Shown here: positions 2,691-30,901 of the stretch, piece after piece
How the letters are laid out: each line of letters opens with the position of its first letter
How positions within the stretch are numbered: position 1 is the stretch's first letter
DNA from: Nitrosospira sp. Nsp2
Lineage (GTDB): Bacteria; Pseudomonadota; Gammaproteobacteria; Burkholderiales; Nitrosomonadaceae
Assembly: GCF_003050965.1 (NCBI RefSeq)
Contig: NZ_QAOU01000002.1
Coordinates: forward strand, 248,001 to 312,000
Direction of reading: 5' to 3'
DNA: 64,000 nt
Notes under the pieces: model-generated
What the model was told of the DNA's origin: nothing
What the model saw: only the letters and a program-made list of their open reading frames with translations
Database searches by the model: none
Translations under genes and position numbers: made by a program

Positions 2691-2778
2691 ACCGCCATGA
2701 CAACCGTGGCCGGTCATTCAAATGCCATGGAGCGTCATAAGTACAAATGAGTTTGATTTTTTCCGTATATGTGTGCCG

Positions 2779-2813
2779 CCGTACATAAAAGCGGTTTTCC
2801 CCTTACTAAGATG
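2779..2813 (+). promoter_or_regulatory. Putative stress promoter, copy 1
   Basis: CCGTACAT, 20 nt, then TAAGATG. It matches the shared element GCG(A/T)ACAG-N20-TAGGATG with two mismatches in the upstream box and one in the downstream box. It lies 125 bp before the KGG gene at 2938. Confidence 0.5.
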
Positions 2814-2937
2814 GGACCATGTCTGGGCTTCGACCCTGGGCAGGCTTTCGCAGGCACTATCCGCTGGGGCGGCGACCTCAGAGAGCAGGCCGGATGCCAG
2901 CGGAAATTTCTTAAATCTGAATATACAGGAGATTATC

Positions 2938-3216
2938 ATGGCCTCAACAACAAAAAGCGGTGGCCAAAGCAAGCGCGGTTTTGCTTCCATGGACGAAGAA
3001 AAGCAACGGGAAATAGCCAGCAAGGGCGGCAAAGCGGCCCATGAAAAAGGGACGGCGCATGAGTTCGACTCTGAAGAGGCCCGCGCGGCGGGTCGCAAAG
3101 GAGGAGAAGCGTCCCGTGGCGGCAGAAGCGGGGGTTCGGGCAGCCAGTCATCTTCTCGCGGCGCCTCATCGGCGCAGCATGCAAAGGCAGCCAGCCCAAG
3201 CCATAAAAAGTCTTAA
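2938..3216 (+). CDS. KGG-repeat stress protein
   Basis: A 92-residue, strongly hydrophilic protein of the KGG (stress-induced bacterial acidophilic repeat, con-10/YciG-like) family. It has the core GFASMDEEKQREIASKGG, a linking HEKGTAHEFDSEEAR, and a second GRKGGEASRGG repeat, then a Ser/Gly-rich tail. Family members are associated with general stress and desiccation, but no biochemical activity is known. There is no signal peptide, so it is probably cytoplasmic. The ATG at 2938 follows an AGGAG-like site (caggag at about 2926-2931); the frame is open further upstream but without a family match. A rho-independent terminator follows immediately. Paralogues lie at 3819 and 29,304. Confidence 0.88.
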   Translation: MASTTKSGGQSKRGFASMDEEKQREIASKGGKAAHEKGTAHEFDSEEARAAGRKGGEASRGGRSGGSGSQSSSRGASSAQHAKAASPSHKKS

Positions 3217-3230
3217 TAGGACCCAGGAAA

Positions 3231-3254
3231 AAAGGCGAGAGGACTCGCCTTTTT
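3231..3254 (+). terminator. Rho-independent terminator
   Basis: AAAGGCGAG pairs with CTCGCCTTT around an AGGA tetraloop and the stem runs into a T tract. It ends the KGG gene at 2938-3216. Confidence 0.85.
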
Positions 3255-3656
3255 GGCTTGATTTCACCGCAACGCTTCACCCCACGCCTCACCCCAGCGC
3301 TTCCATATCAGCGTAGCCGTTATCTATCCTGCACGGTTCTGCTCAGGTTAATCCCTCCCCCGGCGCGTTCCGGAAAGTGCACGGCGCGCTGAACCCTGCA
3401 CCCATCAACTACTTCTCGTCATATTTTTTCACGCGACTGCGACAAACGGCGGAAACATCCGCAGTGCGCAAAGCTACGCCTTTTCATGCGTCCTGAATAA
3501 ATATTCGCCCGCCCTGTTCGTTCCCTGGGTCTGCCTTCTGCAGCAGCCCCCCCTGAAGCAGCCGGTATGGGGCGTTTAATCCCGATGTCATGCCGCCGCC
3601 ATTATGCCTGACGACCTGTTCCCGCTTCATGTCGGACAGGGCCTGTCGGCATGTGT

Positions 3657-3695
3657 GCTGGCGAACAGAGCAAAGCTATTTGACCCTTTAGGATG
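3657..3695 (+). promoter_or_regulatory. Putative stress promoter, copy 2
   Basis: GCTGGCGAACAGAGC at 3657-3671, with GCGAACAG at 3661-3668, 20 nt spacing, and TAGGATG at 3689-3695. TGGCGAACAGAGC is identical at 7431 and 12,386. The KGG gene at 3819 is the next gene downstream. Confidence 0.7.
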
Positions 3696-3743
3696 AATTA
3701 TTCTCCGTCTTTAGATGGCTGAGATAAGGCCCCCGAAAATTTC

Positions 3744-3761
3744 ATATGAGACCGCTCATAT
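3744..3761. promoter_or_regulatory. Perfect inverted repeat in leader
   Basis: ATATGAG-ACCG-CTCATAT, a 7-bp stem with a 4-nt loop, between the putative promoter and the KGG start at 3819. It could be an operator or a leader hairpin. Confidence 0.45.
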
Positions 3762-3818
3762 CGCCCGATCTATATAAAGTAAAGGGAGTTCATTGAGTGT
3801 TGAATGAGGAGATTTATC

Positions 3819-4268
3819 ATGGCTTCAGACAAAGATAAAGATCAAGGAAAAAGCGCCGCTAACGGCAACAGCGGTACAAGCAAGCGCGGCTTTGCTTCAA
3901 TGGATGATGAAAAGCAGCGCGAGATAGCCAGCAAGGGAGGCAAAGCCGCTCATGAGAAGGGCACCGCGCATGAGTTCACCTCTGAAGAAGCCCGGGAAGC
4001 TGGCAGAGCCGCCCATGCGAAAGGCAACGCTCATGAGTTCGATTCCGAAGAGGCTCGCGAAGCCGGCCGCAAGGGCGGCAAGGCGGCTCATGAAAGGGGC
4101 ACGGCGCATGAGTTCAATTCGGACGAAGCTCGCGAAGCGGGCCGTAAGGGCGGCGAGGCGTCCCGTGAAAACAGGAGCGGCAGTTCCGACAGCCAGGCGC
4201 CTTCCTCACGCGGAGGCTCATCCGCGCAGCATGCCAGGACCAGCCGCCAGAGCCCGAAAAACGGTTGA
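3819..4268 (+). CDS. KGG-repeat stress protein, expanded
   Basis: A 149-residue paralogue of the KGG protein at 2938, lengthened by internal duplication. The core GFASMDDEKQREIASKGG is followed by successive AHEKGTAHEF, AHAKGNAHEF and AHERGTAHEF units with EAREAGR linkers, giving about four KGG-like repeats instead of two. The protein is hydrophilic with no signal peptide or membrane segment. The ATG at 3819 follows a GAGGAG site at about 3806-3811. One unit has lost its KGG (GRAAHAKG), which suggests repeat decay after duplication. The gene probably shares its promoter type with several other stress genes in the window. Confidence 0.88.
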   Translation: MASDKDKDQGKSAANGNSGTSKRGFASMDDEKQREIASKGGKAAHEKGTAHEFTSEEAREAGRAAHAKGNAHEFDSEEAREAGRKGGKAAHERGTAHEFNSDEAREAGRKGGEASRENRSGSSDSQAPSSRGGSSAQHARTSRQSPKNG

Positions 4269-4449
4269 GGAACCTCTGAACGCGGCCTCGCGGGGTTGGC
4301 TACCGCAAAGCGAATAAATAGAAGCGTTGCTGTAAATTGTTCACGCGGCCGGGGCGGTGTCTGATGATCGCGAATCGCTGGGTAGCCTTCCTCGACAGCC
4401 CATTCCTCGTGCCGTCGCCTGGTGCTTTACGCTTTTTCTTTGTGCGTAA

Positions 4450-4482
4450 ACGTACGGAACGGCAGCGTGATCTGAGTAGGAT
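4450..4482 (+). promoter_or_regulatory. Putative stress promoter, divergent copy
   Basis: ACGTACGG, 19 nt, TAGGAT. It resembles the shared element but has two mismatches and one base less spacing. It lies about 40 bp before the secreted Gly/Gln-rich gene at 4524. Confidence 0.35.
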
Positions 4483-4523
4483 AAGACGTACAGCAATTTC
4501 GCTGGACTTACTGGAGACAGATC

Positions 4524-4904
4524 ATGAAGCACAGTTTTCTTCTCAAAAATACGGCACGAATTGCAACACTGGCAAGTGTTATCGTTTTCGGCTTCAGCGG
4601 CGCAGCGTACGCGGCGGGCGCGGGAGACCAAACCGGGCAAGGTGGTGACATGTCCGGGCATGGGGGGCCTGTAGACCGCTCGCAGGCGGGGCAATCCGGT
4701 CAAGGCGGATCGTCGTCGATGCAGGGTGGCCAAGGACAAAGACAGGGGCAGGGGCAGGGTGGTATGCGCTCGGGCCAAGGCTCATCAGGGCAGGGCTCAG
4801 GTTCCTCCACGCAACAAGGCTCCGGCTCTTCCGGGCAGTCGGGTTCCACGGGTCAGGGCTCCGGCTCATCCGGGCAATCCGGGGGATCTGGCGGAGGATA
4901 TTAA
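4524..4904 (+). CDS. Secreted Gly/Gln/Ser-rich low-complexity protein
   Basis: A 126-residue protein with a clear Sec signal peptide: a basic start, a hydrophobic core around residues 10-28 and an Ala-rich cleavage region (GAAYAAGAG). The mature part is almost entirely Gly, Ser and Gln in short repeats such as GQGSGSSGQSG. No enzymatic domain is visible. It is probably intrinsically disordered and periplasmic or surface-located. The layout matches the secreted Gly/Ser-rich protein at 12,541, and both sit behind a copy of the shared stress-promoter element. Function unknown. GGAG at about 4512-4515 supports the start. Confidence 0.7.
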   Translation: MKHSFLLKNTARIATLASVIVFGFSGAAYAAGAGDQTGQGGDMSGHGGPVDRSQAGQSGQGGSSSMQGGQGQRQGQGQGGMRSGQGSSGQGSGSSTQQGSGSSGQSGSTGQGSGSSGQSGGSGGGY

Positions 4905-5234
4905 GGAAGCAGGGAAAAAGCCCCACGGGGGGCGCGGGCAGGGTTCACGGGATGAGATGCGCCAAAGGCGACGGCGCGAATGGCTAATCCAATCGGTGAT
5001 CCTAGCCAGGATCCTGACAAAGGCAGACATTCCCGGGGCCGGAACCGTTCGGCCGTTCGGCCATTCCGGTTACGGCGCAATTCAGCGCTCTCCCCGCCCC
5101 CCGCCCGGGCCCGCGTCGAGCCGTATACCAGGCCGGTATCTACGGATCGCCGTTAACATGCTGCCCTGCTGCCGATTCAGGTGCCGAGCGTGCGTTGCCT
5201 TCGTTGCCCTCAGGGGAGCAGTACGAGCAGTACA
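4905..5234. other. GC-rich convergent intergenic region
   Basis: It separates two convergent genes. It holds a minus-strand terminator at 4915-4933 and GC-rich repeats such as TTCGGCCGTTCGGCC near 5048. No gene seen. Confidence 0.45.
4915..4933 (-). terminator. Minus-strand rho-independent terminator
   Basis: Read on the minus strand, GCCCC-CCGT-GGGGC is followed by TTTTT. It could end transcription from the glycosyltransferase gene at 5235-6491, about 300 bp downstream of its stop. Confidence 0.55.
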
Positions 5235-6491
5235 TCACGTCCCGCGGTTATCCTGTCCGTCTACCGGTTTGCGTCCCGCCTTTAAAATCATGCGTTTGAC
5301 ATTGGGGGGAGGCAATCGCGCTTCATCGTCCGCGATTTCCGCTGCCGCGCCCTCACTAGATGTTTCGATCTGCCCACTCGCTTTGCGGGCAGCCCTTTCG
5401 GTTTCCACCTCCGTGAACAGGCGACGCATTTGCTCCGCGGTATCCTCCCAGGAACTGGTCGCTATGAGCCTGCGCATTGCCTCGATTTTCCCGGTTCGTT
5501 GCCCGGGCGTCGCGTTAAGCGCGCTCTCGCACGCCGCAATAAACTCGTTCGCGTCGGCGGCAATGGAGACGGCTTCCCCATAAAGTTCGATGACGTCCGC
5601 AATATCGGTGCTGATGATGGGCAGTTCCGCAGCCATATATTCCAGGGTCTTGGTTGGACTGATGAATCGGGTGGACTGGTTGCGCGCAAACGGGAGCAGG
5701 CATACATCCCAGCCGGCGAGAAACCTCGGCAGGTCATCGTAGGGTTGCTGACCTAGATAATGTATGTTCGGCCGTCGCGGAAGATCCGCCTCATCGATTT
5801 TAACCACTGGCCCGACGAGGATTATCTGCCAATCGGGGTGCGCGTCGGCAAGCACGGCGAGCAGCGCCATATCGAGGCGTTCATCGATTACACCGTAGTA
5901 TCCCAGGCGAGGCCGGGGAATGGCCGCATGTGCGGGATGGCTCTTGGAGCGGTCCCGTGCGTGAGCAAAGTGGGCAACATCCACGCTGCTGGGGAAGCAG
6001 TGAACGTTATGATGCCGCTCGCGCTTTGCCCTGAAGAGGCTTGGCCCCCCCGTGAACACGATATCCGCTTCCTTGAACAACGCATTTTCCCGCTGCAGCA
6101 GTTGCTTGGGCGAGTTTTTGAATGCGGCCAACTCGTCCATGCAATCGTAAACCACAAGGCCCGGGCTTAACTCGTCCATTAACGGTAACGCCATCGGCGT
6201 GTAAAACCAGACCATATGGTCCGGGTAGTCGATTCCCAACTGGCGCGCCAATGGCTGCAAATAGGGCAACTGGTCGTCGTGGAAACCATGAGTTTCCACA
6301 GGTGTGTGCGGTGTCCAGACAATCACATTGGGATGGGGCTCGGAAATCGCCGCCAGATGCTTTTTGGGGTGAAATACGGGTTCTTCGAAGAAAAGAATCC
6401 GGTAATGCGCCGCGAGGCGCGAGAGCAGATGCTGAGGGCGCTGATGGACAAAATTCCATCGCAGGTGCGACATGACGATAATATTTTGCAT
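5235..6491 (-). CDS. GT-B fold glycosyltransferase (family 1/4-like)
   Basis: A 418-residue cytoplasmic glycosyltransferase. The N-terminus (SHLRWNFVHQRPQHLLSRLA) is typical of a group annotated as glycosyltransferase family 1 or TuaH-like. The C-terminal Rossmann half holds the donor-binding SPTKTLEYMAAELPIIST region near residue 280. It probably transfers a nucleotide sugar to an exopolysaccharide or cell-wall glycan; donor and acceptor are not deducible. The start ATG at 6491 has CGGAG a few bases upstream. The gene stands alone, facing the secreted Gly-rich gene. The last 40 residues are charged and poorly conserved. Confidence 0.82.
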   Translation of the reverse strand: MQNIIVMSHLRWNFVHQRPQHLLSRLAAHYRILFFEEPVFHPKKHLAAISEPHPNVIVWTPHTPVETHGFHDDQLPYLQPLARQLGIDYPDHMVWFYTPMALPLMDELSPGLVVYDCMDELAAFKNSPKQLLQRENALFKEADIVFTGGPSLFRAKRERHHNVHCFPSSVDVAHFAHARDRSKSHPAHAAIPRPRLGYYGVIDERLDMALLAVLADAHPDWQIILVGPVVKIDEADLPRRPNIHYLGQQPYDDLPRFLAGWDVCLLPFARNQSTRFISPTKTLEYMAAELPIISTDIADVIELYGEAVSIAADANEFIAACESALNATPGQRTGKIEAMRRLIATSSWEDTAEQMRRLFTEVETERAARKASGQIETSSEGAAAEIADDEARLPPPNVKRMILKAGRKPVDGQDNRGT

Positions 6492-6646
6492 ACTATCTCC
6501 GGGGCATATGCATGAGCCTCTCTGTGAGACATATGCGGCAAATCATAACAGTACGCCTGGGCGGGCCGGCACCAAAGGGTCGGGCTCCGCTCCAGGCGGT
6601 AAACGGCAACAGGTTAAAGAGGATTGAGCCTTCGTGTTGAAAGGCG

Positions 6647-7141
6647 TTATTCCTCCATCAACTCCTCTTTTCGCTGCGCCATTTCGGCTCCAATTTCTTC
6701 AAGATCTACCTTGGCTTTTTCGACCTTGGGGAATATCTCGTTCTGTTCCTCTTCGACGTGATGATTAACATACTCGCCCAGTACCTTAACGGTCGCGTCG
6801 AACATGGGATCAGACGCGCCCATGGATTGGATCTGCGCGATCAGATCCTTGGCTGAGTTATGCTCGACCATGGCTTCGTTCATCAGGTCATCATCGTCGA
6901 TGGCCTCTCGAGCAGCGGGGTAGAAGATTTCTTCTTCCAGTTGCGCATGGATGGTCAGCTCCTTGCAAATTTGCGCCGCCAGCTCTTCCTTGCCTGCTTC
7001 CTCGTTCTTTTTGCTCAGCTTCTCGAATTCCTTGAACATTTTTTTGACCTTGGCGTGGTCCGCGGTCAGCAATTTGATCGCATCATTTTTGGTACGGCGT
7101 GTAGTGGTTTTTGCAGTAGAGGTGCCTTGCGTTGTAGGCAT
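6647..7141 (-). CDS. Hemerythrin HHE domain protein
   Basis: A 164-residue soluble protein with a four-helix hemerythrin-type HHE domain. Iron-ligand candidates are the His in LTADHAKV, the His/Glu in HAQLEEEIFYP, the His in VEHNSAKD, and HHVEEEQNEIFP near the end. Such proteins bind a di-iron centre and are linked to oxygen, nitric oxide or oxidative-stress sensing. The Lys/Thr-rich N-terminus is disordered. The ATG at 7141 has GGAG upstream; the frame stays open for 49 more codons but that part lacks family similarity and would overlap the putative promoter at 7246-7280. Confidence 0.88.
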   Translation of the reverse strand: MPTTQGTSTAKTTTRRTKNDAIKLLTADHAKVKKMFKEFEKLSKKNEEAGKEELAAQICKELTIHAQLEEEIFYPAAREAIDDDDLMNEAMVEHNSAKDLIAQIQSMGASDPMFDATVKVLGEYVNHHVEEEQNEIFPKVEKAKVDLEEIGAEMAQRKEELMEE

Positions 7142-7245
7142 GATAGTTCTCCGTTGATTATGGTTGGTTATACAGTCGGCTGTATGTAATGTGGCCGATT
7201 GCCAATGCGTAACGAATTCATGACAGGCATGTATCCGATGAGCTG

Positions 7246-7280
7246 AAGGATACGCAGGGCCAGCTGAACCTTCTGTTCGC
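7246..7280 (-). promoter_or_regulatory. Putative stress promoter, minus strand (hemerythrin)
   Basis: On the minus strand CTGGCGAACAGA is followed, 20 nt after GCGAACAG, by TATCCTT. The upstream box shares an 11-base core with the copies at 3659, 7431 and 12,386; the -10-like box is weaker. It lies about 105 bp before the hemerythrin start. Confidence 0.6.
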
Positions 7281-7432
7281 CAGACCACACTCGCGTCAAT
7301 TCGGAGTGTGTGCCCTGAACACGCGCTCCAGGCGCCTCGAAAACGCGACTTTTTGCGCCCTTTCCGCGTTACAGAAGGGGGAGGAGGGAAGGCTGCGCCT
7401 TGATTTCGATTTCGACGCCTGAATGTATGATG

Positions 7433-7467
7433 GCGAACAGAGCGATGCCGGTTTGCCGTTTAGGATG
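7433..7467 (+). promoter_or_regulatory. Putative stress promoter, orphan copy
   Basis: GCGAACAG (within TGGCGAACAGAGC), 20 nt, TAGGATG. It is the same in both boxes as the copy at 3661-3695. The next plus-strand gene starts 390 bp later, so the product may be a long structured leader or a non-coding RNA. Confidence 0.65.
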
Positions 7468-7523
7468 CGGTTGAATTTCGGCTTTCGATGGTTCTTTTAT
7501 GGCCTCCTCAGCTCAGGTCGCAG

Positions 7524-7546
7524 ATTGGGCCAGTTTCGGGCCCAAT
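7524..7546. other. Strong RNA hairpin downstream of orphan promoter
   Basis: ATTGGGCC and GGCCCAAT form a perfect 8-bp stem around a 7-nt loop. No T tract follows, so it is not a simple terminator. Confidence 0.5.
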
Positions 7547-7856
7547 GGGACAGTGCAGGGAAACAAGCTTATGAAAGTCAACGCCTCATCCGAGGACCGG
7601 TGTCAATGCCGGCGGACTGAATGCCGGATGGGGCACGCGCCTGGGCTGCGGACCAGCATGGCGGCAAATCCCATCCGGGAAACCCCCTTCCTTTGATTAA
7701 GGACTGCAAGCGGTTGTAGCCCGGCCTGTAGACGGACCTTATAGCGATGCGAACGATACCGGATACTGCGCCACACTGCGCCCTTCAAACGTTCCATGCT
7801 CACCCCATGTTTCACTTCGTAACGGGTATCCAAAAATCATCCATGCTGGACTCGAT

Positions 7857-10109
7857 ATGAAACAAGCGAAAAAACCCGCGCGCGGGGAAGAACTGGCGCT
7901 ATGGGGCGGACTCGAATGCACCGTGAACCGGGTGGCCGACGAATACTTCAGCCAGCTCGCGCGCAACGGACACCTCGAGCGCCTGTGCGATCTGGAGCGG
8001 TTCGCCAGCCTTGGCATCCGCGCGATCCGCTACCCGGTGCTATGGGAGCATATGGCGCCCGATGGAGTCGATCAAATCAACTGGCAATGGTCCGACGCGC
8101 GCTTGCCCGAATTGCAGGCCCGGGGCATTATGCCAATCGTGGGCCTGGTGCACCACGGCAGCGGCCCGAAGTACACCAGCCTGACCGATCCGAATTTCCC
8201 CGAACAGCTGGCTGCCTTTGCCGCGGCAGTGGCGCGGCGGTATCCCTGGGTGGAGTATTACACGCCGGTGAATGAACCGCTCACAACGGCCCGCTTCAGC
8301 GGACTGTATGGATTGTGGTATCCCCATGGTCGAGACGATGCGGTCTTTATCGAGGCGTTGTTGAACCAGTGCCGCGCAGTGGTGTTATCCATGCGCGAGA
8401 TTCGCCGGGTGACCCCCCAGGCAAAACTGGTGCAGACCGACGACCTGGGCAAGACCTACAGTACCGCGCGACTGTCCGACGTGGCGGAATTCTATAATGC
8501 ACGCCGCTGGCTGGGGTGGGATCTCCTGTGCGGAGCAGTAGGGGTGGCGCATCCGTTATGGGAGTATCTGACCAGCACGGGCATCCCTGCGTCGCGGCTG
8601 CTCTGGTTCAAGGACAACCCGTGCGTGCCCGATATTATCGGCATCAACTATTACGTCACCAGCGAGCGGTGGCTGGATAACCGCCTCGAACGCTATCCCG
8701 GTCACCATGTTACTGATTATCGCGGCCATCGCTTTGTCGATATCGAGCCCGCGCGCGTGCTCGCGACGCCGACACCAGGGGTCGGGCCGCTGCTTGAAGA
8801 AGCCTGGGGCCGGTACCGGGTGCCGCTCGCGGTTACCGAGGCGCACATCGACGCGCGCCGCGAGGATCAGATGCGCTGGCTGGTTGAAATCTGGGAGGCG
8901 GCAAGGAAGGCAAGGCAGCAGGGCGTTGACGTGCGCGCGGTCACGGTATGGGCGCTGCTGGGTTCATATGACTGGAACTGTCTCGTTACGCAATGCAGAG
9001 GGTATTACGAGCCCGGTCCTTTCGATGTGCGGTCGGGCAAGCCCCGACCCACGGCTGTCGCCGCCCTTATGCGCGACCTCGCGGCAGGACGTCCGTTATC
9101 TCACCCGGTGTTGAAAGGGCAGGGATGGTGGCGCCGCCCGGGCCGCCTCACCTGCGCGCCGGTGGCTACGGGCACCGCTGTTGCTTCCCTGTATCCCGAG
9201 CACCATCAGGCAACCGATGAGAGCGTGCAGCCGATTCTCATCACAGGCGCAAGCGGCACATTGGGGAGGGCGTTTGCGAAAATCTGCGAGGAGCGGAACC
9301 TCACCTACAAGCTGTTGAGCCGCCAGGAACTGGATATTGCAGTCCAGGACTCCGTGGATTTGGCCGTGTCGCGCTACCAGCCGTGGGCAATCATCAACGC
9401 CAGCGGCTACGTGCAGGTGGACAATGCCGAGCATGAATTCGAACGTTGCTTCCGCGAGAATGTGCTGGGGCCCGCGGTTCTTGCCGGCGTTTGCAAGATG
9501 CGAGGCATCCAGCTGCTGACGTACTCCAGCGATCTCGTATTCGACGGGGGTCAGCGCTTCCCTTACCTGGAGAGCCACACCGTCAAGCCATTGAATAACT
9601 ATGGAAGGAGCAAGGCCGAGGCGGAACGCAGGGTCCGGGAAACCTGCCCCGACGCGCTGGTGGTGCGCTCCAGCGCATTTTTCGGGCCATGGGACAATTA
9701 CAATTTCATTACCCTCGCCTTGAAAGCGCTGGCGGACGGCCAACCATTTCCTGTCTCGACAGACATCACCATTTCACCCACCTATGTGCCAGACCTGGTG
9801 CATGCCAGCCTGGATCTGCTTATCGACCGGGCAGCGGGAATCTGGCACTTGACTAACGCGCATGCGCTCACCTGGGCAGAGCTTGCCGCCATGGCTGCCG
9901 AAAAAGCGGGCATCGACAACGCCGGCCTGGTTGCGCGCGCCAGTCATGAGCTTGGCTATGCCGCGGCTCGTCCCGCCTACAGCGCGCTCTCCAGCGAGCG
10001 GGGCATTATTCTGCCGACGCTCGACAACGCCCTGGACCGTTATTTGGCGTCCAGACGGCAAGAAATGGCGATGGAGTCAACGGAGAAAGCCACCGGCATG
10101 CGTAAATAA
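7857..10109 (+). CDS. Glycosidase (GH1-like) fused to RmlD-like sugar reductase
   Basis: A 750-residue two-domain protein. Residues 1 to about 420 form a (beta/alpha)8 glycosidase of GH1 type, with the putative acid/base Glu140 in TPVNEPLT and the putative nucleophile Glu328 in LAVTEAHID. From about residue 458 a Rossmann domain of the RmlD (dTDP-4-dehydrorhamnose reductase)/extended SDR family follows: ITGASGTLG, a YSSDLVFDGG segment, and the catalytic YGRSK near residue 582. There is no signal peptide, so it is cytoplasmic. It may couple hydrolysis or binding of a glycan to nucleotide-sugar reduction, but this is inference. No good ribosome site precedes the ATG at 7857. The following ABC exporter may be functionally linked. 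Confidence 0.82.
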   Translation: MKQAKKPARGEELALWGGLECTVNRVADEYFSQLARNGHLERLCDLERFASLGIRAIRYPVLWEHMAPDGVDQINWQWSDARLPELQARGIMPIVGLVHHGSGPKYTSLTDPNFPEQLAAFAAAVARRYPWVEYYTPVNEPLTTARFSGLYGLWYPHGRDDAVFIEALLNQCRAVVLSMREIRRVTPQAKLVQTDDLGKTYSTARLSDVAEFYNARRWLGWDLLCGAVGVAHPLWEYLTSTGIPASRLLWFKDNPCVPDIIGINYYVTSERWLDNRLERYPGHHVTDYRGHRFVDIEPARVLATPTPGVGPLLEEAWGRYRVPLAVTEAHIDARREDQMRWLVEIWEAARKARQQGVDVRAVTVWALLGSYDWNCLVTQCRGYYEPGPFDVRSGKPRPTAVAALMRDLAAGRPLSHPVLKGQGWWRRPGRLTCAPVATGTAVASLYPEHHQATDESVQPILITGASGTLGRAFAKICEERNLTYKLLSRQELDIAVQDSVDLAVSRYQPWAIINASGYVQVDNAEHEFERCFRENVLGPAVLAGVCKMRGIQLLTYSSDLVFDGGQRFPYLESHTVKPLNNYGRSKAEAERRVRETCPDALVVRSSAFFGPWDNYNFITLALKALADGQPFPVSTDITISPTYVPDLVHASLDLLIDRAAGIWHLTNAHALTWAELAAMAAEKAGIDNAGLVARASHELGYAAARPAYSALSSERGIILPTLDNALDRYLASRRQEMAMESTEKATGMRK

Positions 10110-10267
10110 GCACCACGCCGGTGCCGTGGCCGGCAGGCACGGCTGTCGCGCGACTGCCAGGAGTTCTTACACACGACGCTATATATATCAGGGACCGCAA
10201 TCAGCGACCGGAAAACATTCACAGGCGGTCGCCAGTTCGACTTTAACCCAATCAAAAAGGCAACGTT

Positions 10268-12097
10268 ATGTTCGCATTCTTTGAACAGCTTGTACGACCC
10301 ACCGATGTACCCGTCAAGCCGCCGCCTTCAGGCTTGCTGGCTTTCTACTGGCACTTTGTCAGCCAGACCAAGGGTCTTTATGCCGCCTTGTTTGCGACTG
10401 GCCTGGCAGTCGCACTGATCGATACCCTGGTCCCGGTATTCATCGGCCACTTCGTGCAGATCATGGAGGCGTCCGCGCGGCCAGAGGCATTGCACGATGC
10501 TATTCCCATGCTGATCGGCATGTCGCTGCTGGTACTGATCGGCAGGCCCCTGGCAGTCCTGATAGACAGCTTCATTCGCCATAACGCGGTGGTGCCGGGC
10601 GTGACCAGCCTGATCCGCTGGCAGAGCCACTGGCATGTCGTCCGGCAGAGTTGGACGCTGTTTCAGAACGACTTCGCGGGGCGCATCGCAAACCGGGTAA
10701 TGAACACGAGCGACGCGGTTCGGGAATGCGTCGTATCGAGTATCCATGCGGTCTGGTATATCGCGGTCTACGGTGCCTCGGCATTATTCCTGATGGGCTC
10801 TGCCGATTGGCGGTTGGCGATTCCCACCGCGTTATGGTTCATTTCGTACATATTTTTCCTTCACTACTTCGTACCCCGCATGCGTGACCTGTCCAGGCAC
10901 AGCAGTGAACGAAGCTCGATACTGATGGGTCGGGTGGTGGACAGCTATACGAATATCCTTACCGTCAAGCTGTTCTCGCGCGCGACCGATGAAGACGCGT
11001 ATGTGCGCGAAGCAATCGAGGATCACACTGGCGCAATAGCGGCGCACATGCGTCTGATAACCAAATTCACCACCACATTGGCGTTGCTGAACGCGCTTTT
11101 ATTGGTGGGCACCTCCTCCATCGGACTGCTGTTGTGGTCCCAGGGAGTGCTTGAAGCGGGGATCGTGGCGATGGCAGTTCCGCTGGCCTGGACGATAGCA
11201 AATACGGCCGGATGGGTCAGTTGGGAGATGAACCGAGCCTTCGAAAACATCGGCGTGGTGCAGGACGGCATGGAAACCATCGCCGTAGTGAACACGATGC
11301 CCGATCGCCCGGCGGCACGTAATTTGGACGTGAGTACAGTCCATGGCGAAATCAGGTTCGAAAGGCTGACCTTCACTTATGGCCGCAGCGATGGCCGCAA
11401 GGTACTGGATAGCCTCAACTGCACCATCCGCCCGGGCGAACGCGTTGGATTGGTCGGAAGCTCCGGCGCCGGAAAATCGACGCTCATCAATCTGTTGCTG
11501 CGCTTTTACGAGATCGAGGCTGGGGGTATCCGGATTGATGGCCTGGATATCCGGGAATTGACACAGGACAGCTTGCGTCGCGCGATCGGGGTCGTGGCTC
11601 AGGATACCTCGTTGCTGCACCGTTCCATCGCGGAAAACATTGCTTATGGCAGTACCGGGGCGACGCCGGCGCAGATTGCGGCGGCCGCCCGGCGCGCGCA
11701 GGCGCACGACTTCATCGTGAGCCAACGGGACTGGAAAGGACGGATCGGCTACGATGCGCACGTGGGCGAGAGAGGGGTGAAGCTCAGCGCAGGGCAAAGG
11801 CAGCGCATCGCAATTGCCCGCGTTGTGCTGAAGAATGCCCCCATTCTGTTGCTCGACGAGGCTACCTCGGCGCTCGACAGTGAAGTGGAACTTGCGATTC
11901 AGGATCAGTTGCTCGGATTGATGGAGGGCAAGACGGTCATCGCTATCGCGCACCGCCTTTCGACCATTGCCTGCCTTGACCGGCTGCTGGTGCTGAACGA
12001 CGGACGCATCGTGGAACAGGGCACCCATGAGGAGCTTCTGCAGCTTAACGGCCAATATGCCATGCTCTGGCGCCACCAGTCCGGCGGATTCCTGTGA
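10268..12097 (+). CDS. ABC exporter, fused permease and ATPase
   Basis: A 609-residue half-transporter of the ABCB/MsbA type. An N-terminal six-helix membrane domain spans about residues 25-330. The ATPase domain has Walker A GSSGAGKST near residue 397, a Q-loop near VVAQDTS, the signature LSAGQRQRIAIAR near residue 504, Walker B ILLLDEATSALD and a switch His in AIAHRLST. Such proteins act as homodimers exporting lipids, glycolipids, peptides or drugs; the substrate is unknown. It begins 158 bp after the glycosidase-reductase gene in the same orientation, so a shared role in glycan or lipid-linked sugar export is possible. AAAGG about 10 nt upstream is a weak ribosome site. Confidence 0.92.
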   Translation: MFAFFEQLVRPTDVPVKPPPSGLLAFYWHFVSQTKGLYAALFATGLAVALIDTLVPVFIGHFVQIMEASARPEALHDAIPMLIGMSLLVLIGRPLAVLIDSFIRHNAVVPGVTSLIRWQSHWHVVRQSWTLFQNDFAGRIANRVMNTSDAVRECVVSSIHAVWYIAVYGASALFLMGSADWRLAIPTALWFISYIFFLHYFVPRMRDLSRHSSERSSILMGRVVDSYTNILTVKLFSRATDEDAYVREAIEDHTGAIAAHMRLITKFTTTLALLNALLLVGTSSIGLLLWSQGVLEAGIVAMAVPLAWTIANTAGWVSWEMNRAFENIGVVQDGMETIAVVNTMPDRPAARNLDVSTVHGEIRFERLTFTYGRSDGRKVLDSLNCTIRPGERVGLVGSSGAGKSTLINLLLRFYEIEAGGIRIDGLDIRELTQDSLRRAIGVVAQDTSLLHRSIAENIAYGSTGATPAQIAAAARRAQAHDFIVSQRDWKGRIGYDAHVGERGVKLSAGQRQRIAIARVVLKNAPILLLDEATSALDSEVELAIQDQLLGLMEGKTVIAIAHRLSTIACLDRLLVLNDGRIVEQGTHEELLQLNGQYAMLWRHQSGGFL

Positions 12098-12540
12098 TTC
12101 CGCCTGATTCAATGCCAGTGGTGTCCGCCCTGCGTGCGCAATCAACGGCTGTTCTAGTCCCCTGATTCCCCTGGGTCTTCGTCCCCTGGGTCTTGGCGCC
12201 AGCTTTCTGCTGAAGTCGGCGCGTTGGCATCCATAAATGCGCGCCATCGTCTCAAGAAGCCTGAGCAACAAAATCTACTCTTCTGTCATTAATCGTCATT
12301 ATTCTTTACGCATATCCACGCCCCGCCATCTTAGCGCCAAAAAAAACAAGACCCGATTTTCCGTCGCATTGAGGGGAACGTACGCTGGCGAACAGAGCTA
12401 AACGCTTTCGGGGACTAGCATGACATCCCTCGCCGCATGCAGTTTCTTTTTTCTAAAATAGGGCCTCGTCATATACGAATTGCCCTTTAGTAAAATGACG
12501 CGGCTCCAGATATCTTCGATGACTAAAACAGGAGGAGCAG
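12098..12540. other. Intergenic region with stress promoter
   Basis: It holds repeated CCCCTGGGTCTT motifs around 12,172-12,195 and a clear copy of the shared promoter element at 12,388-12,422. No gene seen. Confidence 0.5.
12388..12422 (+). promoter_or_regulatory. Putative stress promoter, copy for secreted Gly/Ser protein
   Basis: GCTGGCGAACAGAGC, with GCGAACAG at 12,388-12,395, then 20 nt and TAGCATG. The upstream 15 bases are identical to the copy at 3657-3671. The gene starts at 12,541. Confidence 0.68.
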
Positions 12541-13026
12541 ATGAAAGATATAGCGGTATCCATAAAAACTTGCGCCGTCGTGGTTGCTGCCGCAAGCCTC
12601 GCCTTTGGAAGTCTGGCTCACGCGGCAGGAGGATCGGACAAGGACGAAGGCAAGAGGACGTTGAGCCGTGAGACAACACATGGGAATGAAAGTACCCTCG
12701 GCACCACCGAACCCGGTACTTCCGGAAGCGGCGCATCACAAGGTTCCGGCAATAAAAGCAAGCCGCAAGGGGGCGCCCTAGGGGGGTCCTCGACCGATAA
12801 ATTCAGCAACACGGATACCGGTGGCGGCGGAAGCGGTTCTGGTGCACCGTTGCAGGGCGGTGTTACAACCAACAAGCAGGGGACTTCCGGTGGAGCCAAC
12901 AGCGCAGGTGGAATGCGCGGCACGGTTGGCAAGGACGCCGGGGCGGGACCCCATTCGGGATCTGGCACCGGCAGCGGTTCCGGTAGCGGCAGTGGTTCCA
13001 GCAGTGGTTCGGGTACGGGCAGATGA
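12541..13026 (+). CDS. Secreted Gly/Ser-rich low-complexity protein
   Basis: A 161-residue protein with a Sec signal peptide (MKDIAVSIKTC, hydrophobic core, cleavage near AHAAGG at residues 26-29). The mature chain is Gly, Ser and Thr rich and ends in GSGSGSGSGSSSGSG-type repeats. No known domain. It resembles the secreted protein at 4524 in design but not in exact sequence. It is probably disordered and exported to the periplasm or cell surface. AGGAGGAG at 12,531-12,538 is a strong ribosome site that sets the start. Function unknown. Confidence 0.72.
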   Translation: MKDIAVSIKTCAVVVAAASLAFGSLAHAAGGSDKDEGKRTLSRETTHGNESTLGTTEPGTSGSGASQGSGNKSKPQGGALGGSSTDKFSNTDTGGGGSGSGAPLQGGVTTNKQGTSGGANSAGGMRGTVGKDAGAGPHSGSGTGSGSGSGSGSSSGSGTGR

Positions 13027-13277
13027 AATCGCGGTTTCCCTAAGTATTCCCTCAGGTTTCATCAGTTCCTATCAGCTTCCATCAGCTTCCATGGGGCAGG
13101 CAAAGGAATACCACGGCCTGTCCCACGCTAGAAAGAGCACTTGGCAATAATCCGATTCAATAGCAAAAACACCACTAAAGACGAGAATGGACCTGGATTG
13201 TAACGGACGGTCCATCCACACTCACTCTTCATCGTCTCCTCTCAATACAACCCCCCATACTTCCGTAGGAGGAAAAA

Positions 13278-14435: not shown

Positions 14436-14486
14436 TCCATAGGTTCCGGGTGGACCCCCTTTTAGACACAATTCAGGAGATCAATC

Positions 14487-15221
14487 ATGGAAAGAAGTAC
14501 AGATGTGGGACTCAATCGCACCGGCGTCGATATGTCGCCGATCGATACGAAGGAAATGCTCGCGCTGAGCCGCGCCACACCTGCGTCATCCGGCGGGGAC
14601 GAAACGTCAATGGCTGCAGTGCGCAGGGAATATAACGCTGAAGCGGAAGATCTAGGCTCCATTCCGCCGCCGGGGACCCTCAAAGGTGTCGCCAGCACGG
14701 CAATGCAGAAACTGACGGGCAAGAACCCTGAAGCCTTTATTGACAAACTTGGTTGTCGGCTTGCCTTCGAACGTACTGGTGTCCGGCTTTATGACGCACT
14801 GATCGCCAAGTGTTCAACCGCGCCCGGGGCTGATATCCAGGTCCCGCTCGATACCTTATGGACCTTTCGCAACCAGGAGTTACAGCACTTCAAGCTCGTC
14901 GAGGCTGCCATACGTTCGATCGGCGCTGACCCCACCGCGCAGACGCCTTCCGCGGACGTCGATGGAGTGGCGTCGATGGGCCTGATTCAAGTACTGACCG
15001 ATCCCCGGACGTCGGTGGCGCAATGCCTGGAGGCTATTCTTATCGCGGAACTGGCGGATAACGATGCATGGCAGATGCTCATCCTTTTGGCTGAAAAAAT
15101 GGGGATGAACGATATGGCGCGTGATTTCAGGGTCGCACTCAACGAGGAGGACAACCACCTCATGCATGTCCGCCAATGGTACAAGCAGCTAGTACTTGAG
15201 GACGCTTCGCTCGCTTCTTAG
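14487..15221 (+). CDS. Ferritin-like fold protein (small)
   Basis: A 244-residue protein with a helical bundle after a disordered N-terminal 75 residues. Candidate metal ligands are the Glu in AFERTGVRLYDAL, ELQHFKLVE (E-x-x-H), the Glu in ILIAELADNDAW and EEDNHLMHV near the C-terminus, which is the ferritin-like pattern of four helices each giving a Glu or E-x-x-H. It has no signal peptide. It lies directly downstream of the 385-residue ferritin-like protein. GGAG at about 14,474 supports the ATG at 14,487. The substrate is unknown. Confidence 0.7.
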   Translation: MERSTDVGLNRTGVDMSPIDTKEMLALSRATPASSGGDETSMAAVRREYNAEAEDLGSIPPPGTLKGVASTAMQKLTGKNPEAFIDKLGCRLAFERTGVRLYDALIAKCSTAPGADIQVPLDTLWTFRNQELQHFKLVEAAIRSIGADPTAQTPSADVDGVASMGLIQVLTDPRTSVAQCLEAILIAELADNDAWQMLILLAEKMGMNDMARDFRVALNEEDNHLMHVRQWYKQLVLEDASLAS

Positions 15222-15547
15222 GGAGGCTTGCCATCAGGTGCAATCGAGGGCGACCGGCGGCAAGGGAAGGCCGGTCGCTCATCGCGTCGTATTTTCTGCG
15301 TCTTGCAGCTCCTATTAGCGCGTATAACCGCGCGTAAAATCGCATATGGCAGCGCAGGGTGCGGCGCCAGTTGCCTGCCGGGTTTCCGCAGAAATGTCTT
15401 CCGCGGAAAGGGCTTACTGAGGGGTTTAATAAGAGGCTGGCGGTGGAGGAATGTCACGCCGGAATCAACGCCACATTCCTCTCTCATTTCGCACATGGCG
15501 CAGATAAAGCCCGAGCGGGACTTTACCCCGGCTTGCTTCAGGTCCCG
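15222..15547. other. Convergent intergenic region
   Basis: It contains a strong hairpin (15,250-15,278) that could terminate the ferritin-like genes. Nothing else is recognised. Confidence 0.45.
15250..15278 (+). terminator. Strong hairpin, possible terminator
   Basis: GCGACCGGC and GCCGGTCGC form a perfect 9-bp stem around an 11-nt loop, 29 bp after the stop of the ferritin-like gene. Only a short T tract follows at a distance (TATTTT), so termination efficiency is uncertain. Confidence 0.5.
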
Positions 15548-16066
15548 TTAGCGCTTATCGCCAGATGAGCCCTGGATTTTTTGGGCATGCTCCAGATGGG
15601 AGACAAGCGCCGGGCGCACCTTGACGAGAAGGGCCTTCAGCTCTTCATTCTTGACGTTTGGCACCAGCTTGGTATCAGCCACGTCGATGACCTGTTGGTG
15701 GAGCTTGATTTCTGCGTCGATATAGGCTTTGTCGAATTCTTTTCCGCTCAGGTTCTTCAGTTTGTCGAGGTTCTTTTTGCCGTCGGCTTTCAGGCTCTTG
15801 CTGATGGGATTATCCTCGGGCGTCACCTTAAGTTTGGTTACCAGGTCCGTCGCCTGTTTATTCACGTCGGTGTGCTCGCCGATCATGCGGTGGGCGAAGG
15901 CGTGAACATCTTCATTCGATGCTTTCTTTTTCGCGAGCTCCCCATTTTCAATATCAACCTGATTGGCGGTCACTACAATGTGGGCGATTTGCGCATCATT
16001 GAGCTCGCCGGCCATGGCAAATGCCGGAAACATCAGGGTCGCTGCAAACACGAGTACTTTTTTCAT
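15548..16066 (-). CDS. DUF4142 periplasmic protein
   Basis: A 172-residue exported protein of the DUF4142 family. It has a signal peptide (MKKVLVFAATLMFPAFAMAG, cleaved about residue 19) and a helical ferritin-like body with VEIENGELAKKK-type and HMIGEHTDVN-type segments and a late VSHLEHAQ. DUF4142 proteins are predicted ferritin-like periplasmic proteins associated with stress; their activity is unknown. The ATG at 16,066 has GGAG upstream on the minus strand. A minus-strand copy of the shared promoter element lies about 95 bp upstream, tying it to the KGG and BON genes. Confidence 0.88.
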   Translation of the reverse strand: MKKVLVFAATLMFPAFAMAGELNDAQIAHIVVTANQVDIENGELAKKKASNEDVHAFAHRMIGEHTDVNKQATDLVTKLKVTPEDNPISKSLKADGKKNLDKLKNLSGKEFDKAYIDAEIKLHQQVIDVADTKLVPNVKNEELKALLVKVRPALVSHLEHAQKIQGSSGDKR

Positions 16067-16161
16067 TTTTAATCTCCTTATTGATGATGAGACGCGCCGC
16101 GATAAGCGGCGTAATATGCCGGGCGCTTATCTTGATAACTTGATAACAGCTCCGGCCCGGC

Positions 16162-16196
16162 AATGATGAGCCGTTAGTTGGGCAGTTTCTGTACGC
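16162..16196 (-). promoter_or_regulatory. Putative stress promoter, minus strand (DUF4142)
   Basis: On the minus strand GCTAGCGTACAGA (GCGTACAG core), then 20 nt, then CATCATT. The 13-base upstream box is identical to that before the BON gene at 18,436-18,448. Confidence 0.55.
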
Positions 16197-16334
16197 TAGC
16201 ATACAAAACTACCCTTAGTTAAAACAGGGTCTTAGCTCCGGCCTGTGCGCTACCGCACCGAACCAGGGACCATGGCGCGCGAGAATGCGAACAGGCGCTA
16301 TTGCCGAATAATATTATGTATGCAGGAGCCATTA

Positions 16335-16616
16335 ATGGACAATTCCTCGGACAGACAGGCGGATGAATTGAAGGATGACGAACCGGCGGATCAGCCCGCC
16401 GAGCAGCAAGTGGACCAGGCAACGGATGAATCGAGTGAAGGCGTACCCGTCAGCGAAGAGACTCACGGGAACAGAGTGGGAGAGAAGATAGAGAATCGCG
16501 CGTCCAAGAAACAGGAAACGCGCGAGGAAGCAAAGTCCGTCAGCGGCACCGAGCCGCATCATGATCCCAGAAATGAGAGCCCGGACTCGGGCCCGGCGCC
16601 GCTTGACCGGTATTGA
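16335..16616 (+). CDS. Small acidic, disordered protein
   Basis: A 93-residue, highly charged protein rich in Asp, Glu, Gln and Ser with no hydrophobic segment and no domain I recognise. AGGAG at 16,324-16,328 sets the start; the frame is open further upstream but without a ribosome site. A GCGAACAG sequence lies at 16,287-16,294, but its downstream box falls only 15 bp before the start, so its use as promoter is doubtful. It could be a small stress-induced hydrophilin-like protein; that is inference from composition. Confidence 0.55.
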   Translation: MDNSSDRQADELKDDEPADQPAEQQVDQATDESSEGVPVSEETHGNRVGEKIENRASKKQETREEAKSVSGTEPHHDPRNESPDSGPAPLDRY

Positions 16617-16791
16617 TATAAACGGAAGGGGCGGGTGCCGCCCTGGGGTATTGCCCCTCGGTATCGCCCTTCAGCCAGCGGGTCCGGATGGCGGCTAACG
16701 GCGGAAGGCCCGCGCAGCCGATAACGCGGCTGACAGGTGTAGTTGGAGGGCGCCCGGGGGCGCCGCGGATGCGGGTCCCCACATCTCTTTT

Positions 16792-17748
16792 CTATAAATC
16801 GAGGTCCACCCCCAACGCAGCATGATCCGATGCGGATACGTCCGGCCCCGTGACGGTCGGGAATTGGGTAATGGGTTGAGCACCTTCTTTTACAGCAATG
16901 CCTCGATCCCATGTATCCCACGCCGCTCAAAACCATAACCCGTAATCTTCGGCCGAAGCGCTTCGGATACGAAGATATAGTCCAGCTGAGTCAATTTCGG
17001 CCGCCCGGCTCCGGCATCCTCGTAATAATGGGTATAACGCTGTTGATCGGTAGAGTCGGGTCGATGACGGGTGCAAACCATTTTTCTGCAAGAGGGGATG
17101 CAGCGAACCGAAGGCGCTGCTGGTATCCTCGTTCATATCTCCCATGACAACAGCGTATTGACGGGCCAGGTCGTAGCGATCGACAGTCGAGGCGACTGCG
17201 CGGGCTTGCTCCAGTCGTTTTGCGGCCGATTCCTCCGCCGCCCCCATCTGGCTCTTGAAGTGATTGCAGAGCACGTGGATGCGCGTGTTCTCGTCGCGGT
17301 CAATTGCAAGCTCCAGGCAGTGACGGCTGAAGACACGGCGGTTCGTTCCCGGCACCAGATTGAAGACATGCGTGATGAGGTTTGTCATGTGGTAGCGGGT
17401 GAGGCAGCCAATATCGATTCCGCGCGGGTCATTGGGACTGTCAATGGCGATATATTCGCCGTACGACGTGGCGGCGACACTGCGGTTGAAAACGCGCAGC
17501 ACCTCCATGCCTTCGACTTCGATTGCGCAAAAAATGTCCGCGTTGACAAAGTTCACTACCAGCGCGGTATTCATGCGTTGCTGGTCGCTGAAATCCTCGA
17601 AGCGGGATAGGATCAGCCCGCTCCAGCTGCTGCGGCCTTTGGCTTGCCGGTTGATGCGGAAACCGGTGCGGCCTGTATGTCTATCCTCGCGCCGGAACGG
17701 TCCGGAATCCCCCAGCAATCTCCACTTACCAGTGAATAGGATTGACAA
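16792..17748 (-). pseudogene. Endonuclease/exonuclease/phosphatase family gene, frameshifted and truncated
   Basis: A decayed EEP-fold (DNase I-like) gene. The largest piece contains the family segment FEDFSDQQRMNTA...VNFVNADIFCAIEVE, then IDSPNDPRGIDIG, CNHFKSQ and VVMGDMNED. The frame then shifts near 17,050 to give LTQLDYIFVSEAL, and shifts again near 16,885 to give TVTGPDVSASDHAALGVDLDL, ending at a stop at 16,792. The N-terminus is also missing: the usual (T/A)xN(L/I)EN start of the family is not found upstream. Catalytic residues survive in separate pieces, so no intact enzyme can be made. An intact gene of the wider fold lies at 33,059. Confidence 0.75.
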
Positions 17749-17761
17749 TCATTCTCATTAG
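17743..17761. promoter_or_regulatory. Fur-box-like sequence
   Basis: Read on the minus strand, AATGAGAATGATTGTC matches 13 of 16 positions of the Fur consensus core AATGATAATCATTATC. It lies at the edge of the decayed EEP gene and upstream of an uncharacterised plus-strand stretch. Confidence 0.5.
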
Positions 17762-18507
17762 CGTTACTGTATTTGCGGGACTGTAGCGGATAGTGTTGCT
17801 GAAGCTAAAATTAATTGGGATAAGGGGAACAAACTTGATACAGAATCGGGGAAAATCAAACGAGAAACCGCCGGTCAGCTTGCTGCTGGCTGTACTATCA
17901 TGGCTTACTACCCGATCCCGTCCAAGCGCGGCGCGGACCGATGCCGACCGGGTAACCCGGACGGCGATCGCTCATCATTTCCAGCTTCTTGTTCTGCATC
18001 CGGCGTCGGACAGCATCGATATCGAAGCGGGCATCTACATGGCTGAGCGGGCGGGAGTGGATGCGAGCGATCTGCTTGCGCGTTTCGCGGGTATTACCGG
18101 CCGGCTCCACTAAACCCTGGTCAACCTTTTGCCAGCGTGCCACCAATTTCCATGCCGGGATCAGCCAGACCCCACCGTCACTTTCATGCCACCGGCCCTT
18201 CAAAGCCTCACGTCGCGCGCGTGAGGACTTACTGACAGGCTCCTTAGTAATCGCCACCGGTTTGCGCTTCATGGACGCGGAACCACTCAGTTCCTGCAGC
18301 GACGGAAAGGGCGGAGGCCTTATCTTCGTGCCGGAACGCCTGCCTGCCTCTGTCCCGGCCATTCCACCTCCCCGACAACGCTCAACCCTCAACCCTTTTG
18401 CCTGCCCAATTACTGCTGGCCTCGACCCTGCGTTCGCTAGCGTACAGACATGAAACGCTAACAGCACGAGTATGACTCTACCATTCTATTCTTAAAAAGG
18501 AGAAGTC
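17749..18507. other. Region without a certain gene
   Basis: Behind the Fur-like box a plus-strand frame at 17,793-18,113 (GTG start, 106 residues) and a minus-strand frame from 18,272 down to 17,898 overlap. Neither has a domain I can name, and either could be real or a remnant. The right end holds the BON-gene promoter element at 18,440-18,474. Confidence 0.4.
18440..18474 (+). promoter_or_regulatory. Putative stress promoter (BON lipoprotein)
   Basis: GCTAGCGTACAGA with core GCGTACAG at 18,440-18,447, then 20 nt, then GAGTATG. It lies 34 bp before the BON gene start, a fitting distance. Confidence 0.58.
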
Positions 18508-18882
18508 ATGAAAATATCGAAATCCCTCCCGTCATTCGCGGTAGTTCTGATGGCTGCAGTGCTGGCGGGTCCTATTTCTGGTTGTGCCACCAAGTCGGAG
18601 CGCTCTACCGATCGTTCTTCAGAGCGTTCTTCCGAGCGTCCCTCGGGCGTAGGTGAATATGTAAGTGATTCGGTCATTACGACCAAAATAAAATCAAAGC
18701 TGGCAACGGCAGATGATGTCAGCGCGGTCCATATCAAGGTGGATACAGACAAGAACGGCGTGGTGGTGCTGAGCGGCACCGCTAAAAGCAAGGCTGAAGC
18801 GGATAAAGCGCATGCGATAGCCCATTCCGTGGAAGGCGTCACCAAGGTTATCAACAATATCAGGATCAAGAAGGAAGACTAA
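18508..18882 (+). CDS. BON-domain lipoprotein
   Basis: A 124-residue outer-membrane or periplasmic lipoprotein. Residues 1-25 are a lipoprotein signal with lipobox ISGC. A Ser/Arg-rich linker with repeated SERSSERS follows, then a single BON domain (about residues 52-122: VSDSVITTKIKSKLATAD...VVLSGTAKSKAEADKAHAIAHSVEGVTKVINNI). BON domains bind phospholipid and are common in OsmY-like osmotic or envelope stress proteins. AAGGAG upstream sets the start. The gene has its own copy of the shared stress-promoter element. Confidence 0.92.
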   Translation: MKISKSLPSFAVVLMAAVLAGPISGCATKSERSTDRSSERSSERPSGVGEYVSDSVITTKIKSKLATADDVSAVHIKVDTDKNGVVVLSGTAKSKAEADKAHAIAHSVEGVTKVINNIRIKKED

Positions 18883-30868: not shown

Positions 30869-30901
30869 TGACATCTCCTCTTGCTGAATAGAATTTAGGA
30901 A

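Follow-up and report, generated by a model that had tools for sequence, protein, structure and literature searches.

The window considered here, that is, the whole stretch of 64,000 nucleotides that was analysed, comprises bases 248001-312000 of contig C2 of Nitrosospira sp. Nsp2, whose genome spans 3.46 Mb in 21 contigs. Between 2.7 and 18.5 kb of the window, a repeated element precedes several small genes of stress type, and it is very probably the operator of CRP/FNR activators marked by a helix RRE(S/G)(V/I), which would control a class II, stress-type regulon. The predicted operators, the genes behind them and the candidate regulator are listed below, with scores from the matrix described further on.

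2770-2785, plus strand: predicted operator TGTGTGCCGCCGTACA; score 15.4; -10-like TAAGAT at 2807-2812; predicted to serve the KGG gene at 2938
2938-3216, plus strand: KGG-repeat stress protein (PF10685, 57.3 bits)
3652-3667, plus strand: predicted operator TGTGTGCTGGCGAACA; score 21.1; -10-like TAGGAT at 3689-3694; predicted to serve the KGG gene at 3819
3819-4268, plus strand: KGG-repeat stress protein (PF10685, 87.7 bits); start at 3819 set by eye, open reading frame (ORF) scanned from 3804
4441-4456, plus strand: predicted operator TGTGCGTAAACGTACG; score 19.7; right half ending in ACG, not ACA; TAGGAT at 4477-4482 (N19)
4524-4904, plus strand: small secreted Gly/Ser-rich ORF (ORF call; no Pfam family)
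6647-7141, minus strand: hemerythrin HHE-domain protein (PF01814, 57.5 bits)
7274-7289, minus strand: predicted operator TGTGGTCTGGCGAACA; score 25.5; -10-like TATCCT at 7247-7252; predicted to serve the hemerythrin gene
7424-7439, plus strand: predicted operator TGTATGATGGCGAACA; score 20.0; -10-like TAGGAT at 7461-7466; directed towards the gene at 7857
7857-10109, plus strand: glycosyl hydrolase family 1-like and RmlD-like protein (PF00232, 36.4 bits; PF04321, 189.8 bits)
12379-12394, plus strand: predicted operator CGTACGCTGGCGAACA; score 20.4; left half beginning with CGT; -10-like TAGCAT at 12416-12421
12541-13026, plus strand: secreted Gly/Ser-rich ORF (ORF call; no Pfam family)
15548-16066, minus strand: DUF4142 secreted protein (PF13628, 137.6 bits)
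16190-16205, minus strand: predicted operator TGTATGCTAGCGTACA, a near-perfect palindrome; score 28.4; -10-like CATCAT at 16163-16168; predicted to serve the DUF4142 gene
18431-18446, plus strand: predicted operator CGTTCGCTAGCGTACA; score 19.6; left half beginning with CGT; -10-like GAGTAT at 18468-18473; predicted to serve the BON gene
18508-18882, plus strand: BON-domain protein (PF04972, 71.7 bits; OsmY model 59.2 bits, under its cut-off of 174)
30104-30874, minus strand: CRP/FNR-superfamily regulator of the RRES type, candidate binder (PF13545, 47.9 bits; helix MIGARRESVSEAA)

The first-pass annotation had described the element as two boxes, GCGWACAG and a TA(N)(N)AT-type hexamer exactly 20 nucleotides further on (N20), and had suggested that one sigma factor or activator controls it. 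The identical copies on which it was founded were confirmed in both string and position, with TGGCGAACAGAGC at 3659, 7431 and 12386 on the plus strand and GCTAGCGTACAGA at 18436 (plus) and 16188-16200 (minus), and GCGWACAG was indeed over-represented in the window (15 copies against 4.5 expected, a number reached in none of 100 shuffles). The fixed spacing was exact for TANNAT at 3661, 7433 and 12388 and for TATCCT at 7280 on the minus strand, but the hexamer departed from the proposed type at 16195 on the minus strand (CATCAT) and at 18441 (GAGTAT). Nine of the 15 copies, located at 830-837, 13876, 13.9 kb (two copies), 16287, 20556, 46403, 49973 and 58787, showed neither a -10-like hexamer at N20 nor a matrix match. 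The exact pattern GCGWACAG-N20-TANNAT was found at four places in the genome, three of them in the window (one place for a reversed control pattern), and at 29 places in 20 genomes when 61 genomes were searched; judging from the ORFs covering and following them, many of these places look like chance occurrences, because the pattern ignores the left half of the element.

This left half was recognised by footprinting the hemerythrin, DUF4142 and BON matches of 23 genomes of the genus (23, 30 and 30 loci, paralogs included), in which 450 upstream bases were scanned and the core CGWAC(A/G)GA was required within 220 nt of the start. The core was present upstream of 40 of the 83 loci (hemerythrin 16/23, own locus included; DUF4142 10/30; BON 14/30) and absent from the other 43, many of which are distant paralogs. 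Alignment of the 40 sites on the core revealed TGT (positions -10 to -8) and G (position -5), neither of which was required by the search, as well as a hexamer 20 nt downstream with A as its second and T as its sixth base. In full, the element is a 16-bp palindrome, TGTNCG-N4-CGNACA, of which the box forms the right half and which contains a TGT-N10-ACA inverted repeat. Since the -10-like hexamer, 20 nt after CGWACAG, is taken as -12 to -7, the centre of the dyad falls at -41.5 relative to a start predicted from that hexamer; class II CRP sites are centred at -41.5 according to excerpts of two papers (PMC10882989, PMC5957442). The class II layout, with dyad and -10 hexamer in sharp N20 phase, was evident in two sets: xAxxxT stood exactly at N20 in 23 of the 30 intergenic C2 matches scoring above 13 (other offsets, 0-10%), and, among 76 sites near named regulators, at N20 in 59% and at N21 in 21% (other offsets, 0-11%).

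It was considered whether the two boxes could instead be the -35 and -10 elements read by an alternative sigma factor, extracytoplasmic or otherwise, as the fixed spacing, the stress-type genes and the nine Sigma70_r2 matches of the genome would allow. However, the asymmetry of a -35 box, as seen in alternative sigma-factor promoters, was not found, the upstream box being half of a dyad with a conserved TGT..G opposite, and the downstream box is an ordinary xAxxxT. Twenty nucleotides after GCGWACAG is, moreover, long for a -35/-10 spacer. The TGT-N10-ACA palindrome to which the first box contributes one half is centred at -41.5, its occurrence tracks one CRP/FNR subfamily, and the window contains none of the nine Sigma70_r2 genes. 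The sigma-factor reading was therefore rejected, with hardly any probability left to it. The part of the initial proposal that survives, and is strongly supported, is a shared control element before stress-type genes acted on by an activator.

The specificity of the dyad was evaluated by an unbiased count of all 16 TGTNxy-N4-y'x'NACA forms, which avoids the bias of the matrix. In a set of named homologous loci, the best 80 kept from 592 confirmed relatives, the CG form occurred 43 times against 0.8 expected, the next dyad reaching two; when the gap was varied from 0 to 12, 43 occurrences fell at gap 4 and 0-2 at each of the others. The same count on C2 yielded five CG dyads against 0.2 expected, and 0-1 for the other forms. 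The fourth half-site position was loose, with G 40, A 27, T 17 and C 2 among 86 half-sites, in which the following CG is given by construction of the set. A longer consensus at the named loci reads TNTGTNCGCTAGCGNACANA.

Sites were scored with a 23-column matrix whose training set, 25 unique sites, came only from other species and from upstream of their hemerythrin, DUF4142 and BON relatives. Loci of the same species, those of the genome itself included, were excluded from the training, a region lacking the core had no way of entering it, and the -10 hexamer lies outside the matrix columns. In the window, eight matches above 15 were obtained, all at 2.7-18.5 kb, against a mean of 0.1 (largest, one) in 20 first-order Markov shuffles, and ten above 9 against 0.8 expected. 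Three of the eight are at the window's own copies of training genes. The other five are new: two lie before KGG genes, two before secreted Gly/Ser-rich ORFs and one in the promoter facing the gene at 7857. The range delimited by the first-pass annotation does begin at a real site, at 2780 (score 15.4), and, among its weaker candidates, 4450 proved real (19.7, with the -10 at N19); 16287 (-12.9) and 29182 (2.1) were rejected by the matrix, and 36272 was marginal (9.3, minus strand, no -10). In its list of downstream genes hemerythrin is rightly included, being served by the site at 7279 on the minus strand, but the element at 7431 points away from it, to the gene at 7857.

On C2 (762 kb, 22% of the genome, called 80% coding by a hexamer-based caller made for this analysis), 41 matches exceeded 11 (3.0 expected), 33 exceeded 13 (1.8), 25 exceeded 15 (0.7) and 20 exceeded 17 (0.4), a palindromic dyad read on both strands counting twice here as in the 80-locus and C1/C4 matrix counts. 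The intergenic shares were 36/41, 30/33, 24/25 and 20/20, respectively, although the site at 2780, probably inside a false ORF, was tallied as coding; the sites thus sit in promoter regions rather than everywhere, as had been predicted. A 400-kb sample of contigs C1 and C4 contained eight matches above 12 against 1.1 expected, seven of them with a -10. With a site model of 46 positions, at least 22 matches at E up to 10 were found in the genome among the 150 of 671 candidates that were scored, of which TGTATGCTAGCGTACA was the best (E 2.3e-4); this model is weak, as it fails to recover the window sites at 2780, 4451 and 18441, three out of eight. Eleven of these 22 matches fall on C2, and sites are sparser in the C1/C4 sample, so C2 gives too high a figure for the density across the genome. 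Across the order, with the number of candidates again capped, this model matched at E up to 0.1 in at least 14 of 41 genomes, own included. Two near-perfect palindromes, TCTGTTCG-N4-CGAACAGA, were also seen on C1 at 886.8 kb and on C7 at 72.1 kb (loci L229 and L235, about 1506-1511 in each); since both score on both strands, one dyad may serve two promoters.

The genes following the C2 sites encode KGG (three sites), hemerythrin, DUF4142, BON, DUF308 and DUF2383 proteins, and weaker sites (12.2 and 12.4) precede OsmC and DUF883 genes; by eye, sites are also present at an AsmA-like gene and at the RREGIT regulator gene itself. Other genes behind C2 sites are not obviously related to stress, including, partly by eye, a pyridine-nucleotide oxidoreductase, an FAD-kind oxidoreductase, a hydrolase, kinase-like and acyltransferase-like genes and unknowns. 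On other contigs, a second BON gene has a site before it, and so, by eye, do copper-protein-, RecQ-, Lon- and NRAMP-like genes. Outside the genus, the genes behind model matches comprise, by eye, two of BON type, one that is DUF883-like and one for a regulator with the N-terminal sequence of the subfamily, and OsmC-, BON-, CsbD- and PRC-barrel-like genes follow the sites at named loci.

The regulators very probably acting at these sites form a little-studied branch of CRP/FNR. Nine PF13545 matches were detected in the genome, eight of them over the cut-off; one carries the helix HREAVT, and seven, including that at 30104-30874 in the window and an RRESVTQ regulator at about 192.2 kb of C5, combine a long N-terminal signature with the helix RRE(S/G)(V/I). 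The C-terminal CRP-type helix-turn-helix is clear in the window protein and in the RREGIT paralog (50.8 bits; cut-off 27). A beta-roll sensor domain and a long dimer helix were identified by matching the regulator profile A2 to GlxR (4cyd; query 25-219, E 1.1e-8), and an AlphaFold2 model of the window regulator (pLDDT 83.1) has GlxR and CRP as its closest solved folds, aligning with 4cyd over 221 columns (TM-score 0.68 by query, 0.77 by target). For the cyclic-nucleotide domain PF00027, the window protein gave no reported match and the RREGIT paralog reached 23.4 bits, against a cut-off of 27.5; since this pocket match is weak, cAMP is a doubtful ligand. The nearest named relative of the window regulator, from a Nitrosospira metagenome bin, shares 66% identity.

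Within the genus, sites above 13 were located within 900 bp of 11/45 RRES, 20/22 RREGIT and 5/5 SRESVA genes, and of 0/17 FNR-like, 0/7 HREAVT and 0/2 other genes (one of these a broken RREGIT piece). In total, 36 of 72 RRE(S/G)/SRES-type genes had such a site against none of 26 other CRP/FNR genes (Fisher p 6.5e-7, nominal because related genomes are not independent). The FNR-like (AEETV) and HREAVT regulators are thus not favoured as binders. The element is likewise close to such activator genes in many other Beta- and Gammaproteobacteria: the 80 homologous loci held 103 matches above 11, compared with 1.1 in shuffled sequence and none with a reversed matrix, and a site was carried by 61 of them, including 59 of the 73 not titled Nitrosospira or Nitrosovibrio, among which were Variovorax, Collimonas, Undibacterium, Aeromonas, Rhodanobacter and Thiocystis. 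The RREGIT and RRESVTQAALKL clades are present in 22/22 genomes examined, and the RREGIT paralog, at about 642.8 kb of C2 and with sites within 900 bp in 20/22 genomes, is the best single candidate for the acting regulator. The window's own regulator is not favoured as sole controller, having no adjoining site and close orthologs that were not seen in every genome. In addition, RRES- or SRES-type genes were noticed beside a receiver-domain gene with the operator upstream at L151, L138 (G007, G009) and L170 (G007), hinting at a link to two-component signalling.

What the computation establishes is the element itself, its symmetry and -10 phase, its enrichment and intergenic bias on C2, its conservation and its linkage to one subfamily; binding, activation rather than repression, the choice of acting paralog and the signal are inferred. 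A dimer of an RRE(S/G)(V/I)-type regulator would occupy the 16-bp dyad centred at -41.5, over the place of the -35 box, and would bring RNA polymerase to promoters that have a -10 hexamer only, in response to some stress signal. Its regulon would comprise KGG, hemerythrin, DUF4142, BON, DUF308 and DUF2383 genes, together with OsmC and DUF883 at weaker sites. Some regulators of the subfamily carry the predicted operator before their own gene or a neighbour. It is unlikely, by comparison, that the same proteins act on the same operator as repressors at many sites. Sites between divergent genes, such as the C2 dyad at 642.74 kb, which reads on both strands beside the RREGIT gene, could be autorepressor sites; however, a repressor needs no single phase, and the sharp N20 phase with the dyad at the -35 place is an activating arrangement.

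Several observations weigh against the operator as proposed for RRE-type activators. The strict dyad occurs only five times on C2, where the preference for gap 4 is weak (gap 5 gives three), because left halves there are degenerate. The enrichment of stress genes is a judgement by eye and Pfam; the genome has five DUF4142 matches, every one on C2, and only one of them has a site above 11; and a KGG-like gene at 29304 lacks an acceptable operator (best matrix score 2.1). Three of 17 site-model matches outside the genus had no matrix match above 11. With respect to the regulators, no site was found within 900 bp of 36 of the 72 RRE/SRES-type genes, including all 22 of the RRESVTQAALKL clade and the window's own regulator, and an RRE-type regulator was the longest downstream ORF for only 15 of 88 matches above 12 at named loci. 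The RREGIT-adjacent sites have other right ends (CGTACATA, CGTACCGA and CGCACAAA), so RREGIT control of CGWACAGA sites is not proven, and these differing last bases may reflect sub-regulons. The site-less genes, and the many named-locus sites, most of them, that do not face the regulator gene, would agree with a regulator of another family binding the dyad, the RRE-type genes being merely among its targets. Nevertheless, TGT-N10-ACA at -41.5 is CRP/FNR geometry, and the contrast between homologous loci and other CRP/FNR genes of the genus described above makes this highly unlikely.

Other features of the window deserve mention. The hemerythrin gene product scored 94.7 bits with the PA2171 ribosome-binding persister family model, far under the cut-off of 190. 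The divergent pair of sites at 7274 and 7424 is also present in another genome (G001, L019). The ORF at 7857-10109 encodes 750 residues, in which a glycosyl hydrolase family 1-like part is joined to an RmlD-type part, and an ABC exporter gene (10268-12097) comes next; the operator upstream of 7857 is the one shared with G001. The KGG-like gene at 29304-29615, the third in the window and recognised by eye, has the CRP/FNR regulator at 30104 and a histidine-kinase-like ORF nearby. A plasmid search with positions 2700-7900 of the window returned no match.

The E. coli CRP operator is TGTGA-N6-TCACA, and that of NtcA of cyanobacteria is GTA-N8-TAC. Like that of E. coli CRP, the element described here has a TGT-N10-ACA frame and a class II centre at -41.5, and its regulators have a CRP-like predicted fold and helix-turn-helix. 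Unlike it, the element has CG at half-site positions 5-6; dyads with A at position 5, of which the four forms symmetric at position 6 are those among the 16 counted, occurred once at the 80 loci and once on C2, against 43 and five for CG. The helix RRE(S/G)(V/I) also lacks the CRP arginine, which we take to be R185 and whose loss would presumably fit the loose fourth half-site position, and the cyclic-nucleotide domain model is absent or under cut-off. NtcA has the same frame, and TGTACGCTAGCGTACA is an example of a site compatible with either; in contrast, half-site position 4 is mixed here, CG follows it by construction of the set counted, and the NtcA equivalog model gave at best 20.9 bits, in one of four regulators scanned, against a cut-off of 244.95. 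The RpoS, sigma-B and EcfG general stress regulons overlap in gene kinds (OsmC, BON, KGG, DUF308 and DUF883) with the set described here, whose shared element would, unlike theirs, be an activator operator and not a sigma-factor promoter. No description of this operator or regulon was found in the titles and abstract openings that made up the literature searched, from which subscription literature was mostly absent.

A tentative idea, possible rather than probable, casts this undescribed CRP/FNR branch, which has seven genes here and relatives across Beta- and Gammaproteobacteria, as an independent general stress switch, whose several sensors would converge on one operator, in a role like that of RpoS, sigma-B or EcfG. 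A large unnamed subfamily of regulators gains a concrete DNA code and a target set in many genera, which opens the regulator, its signal and a stress response in slow-growing ammonia oxidisers to direct testing. At the same time, DUF4142, DUF883, DUF2383 and DUF308, known only as domains of unknown function, are tied to one co-regulated stress set.

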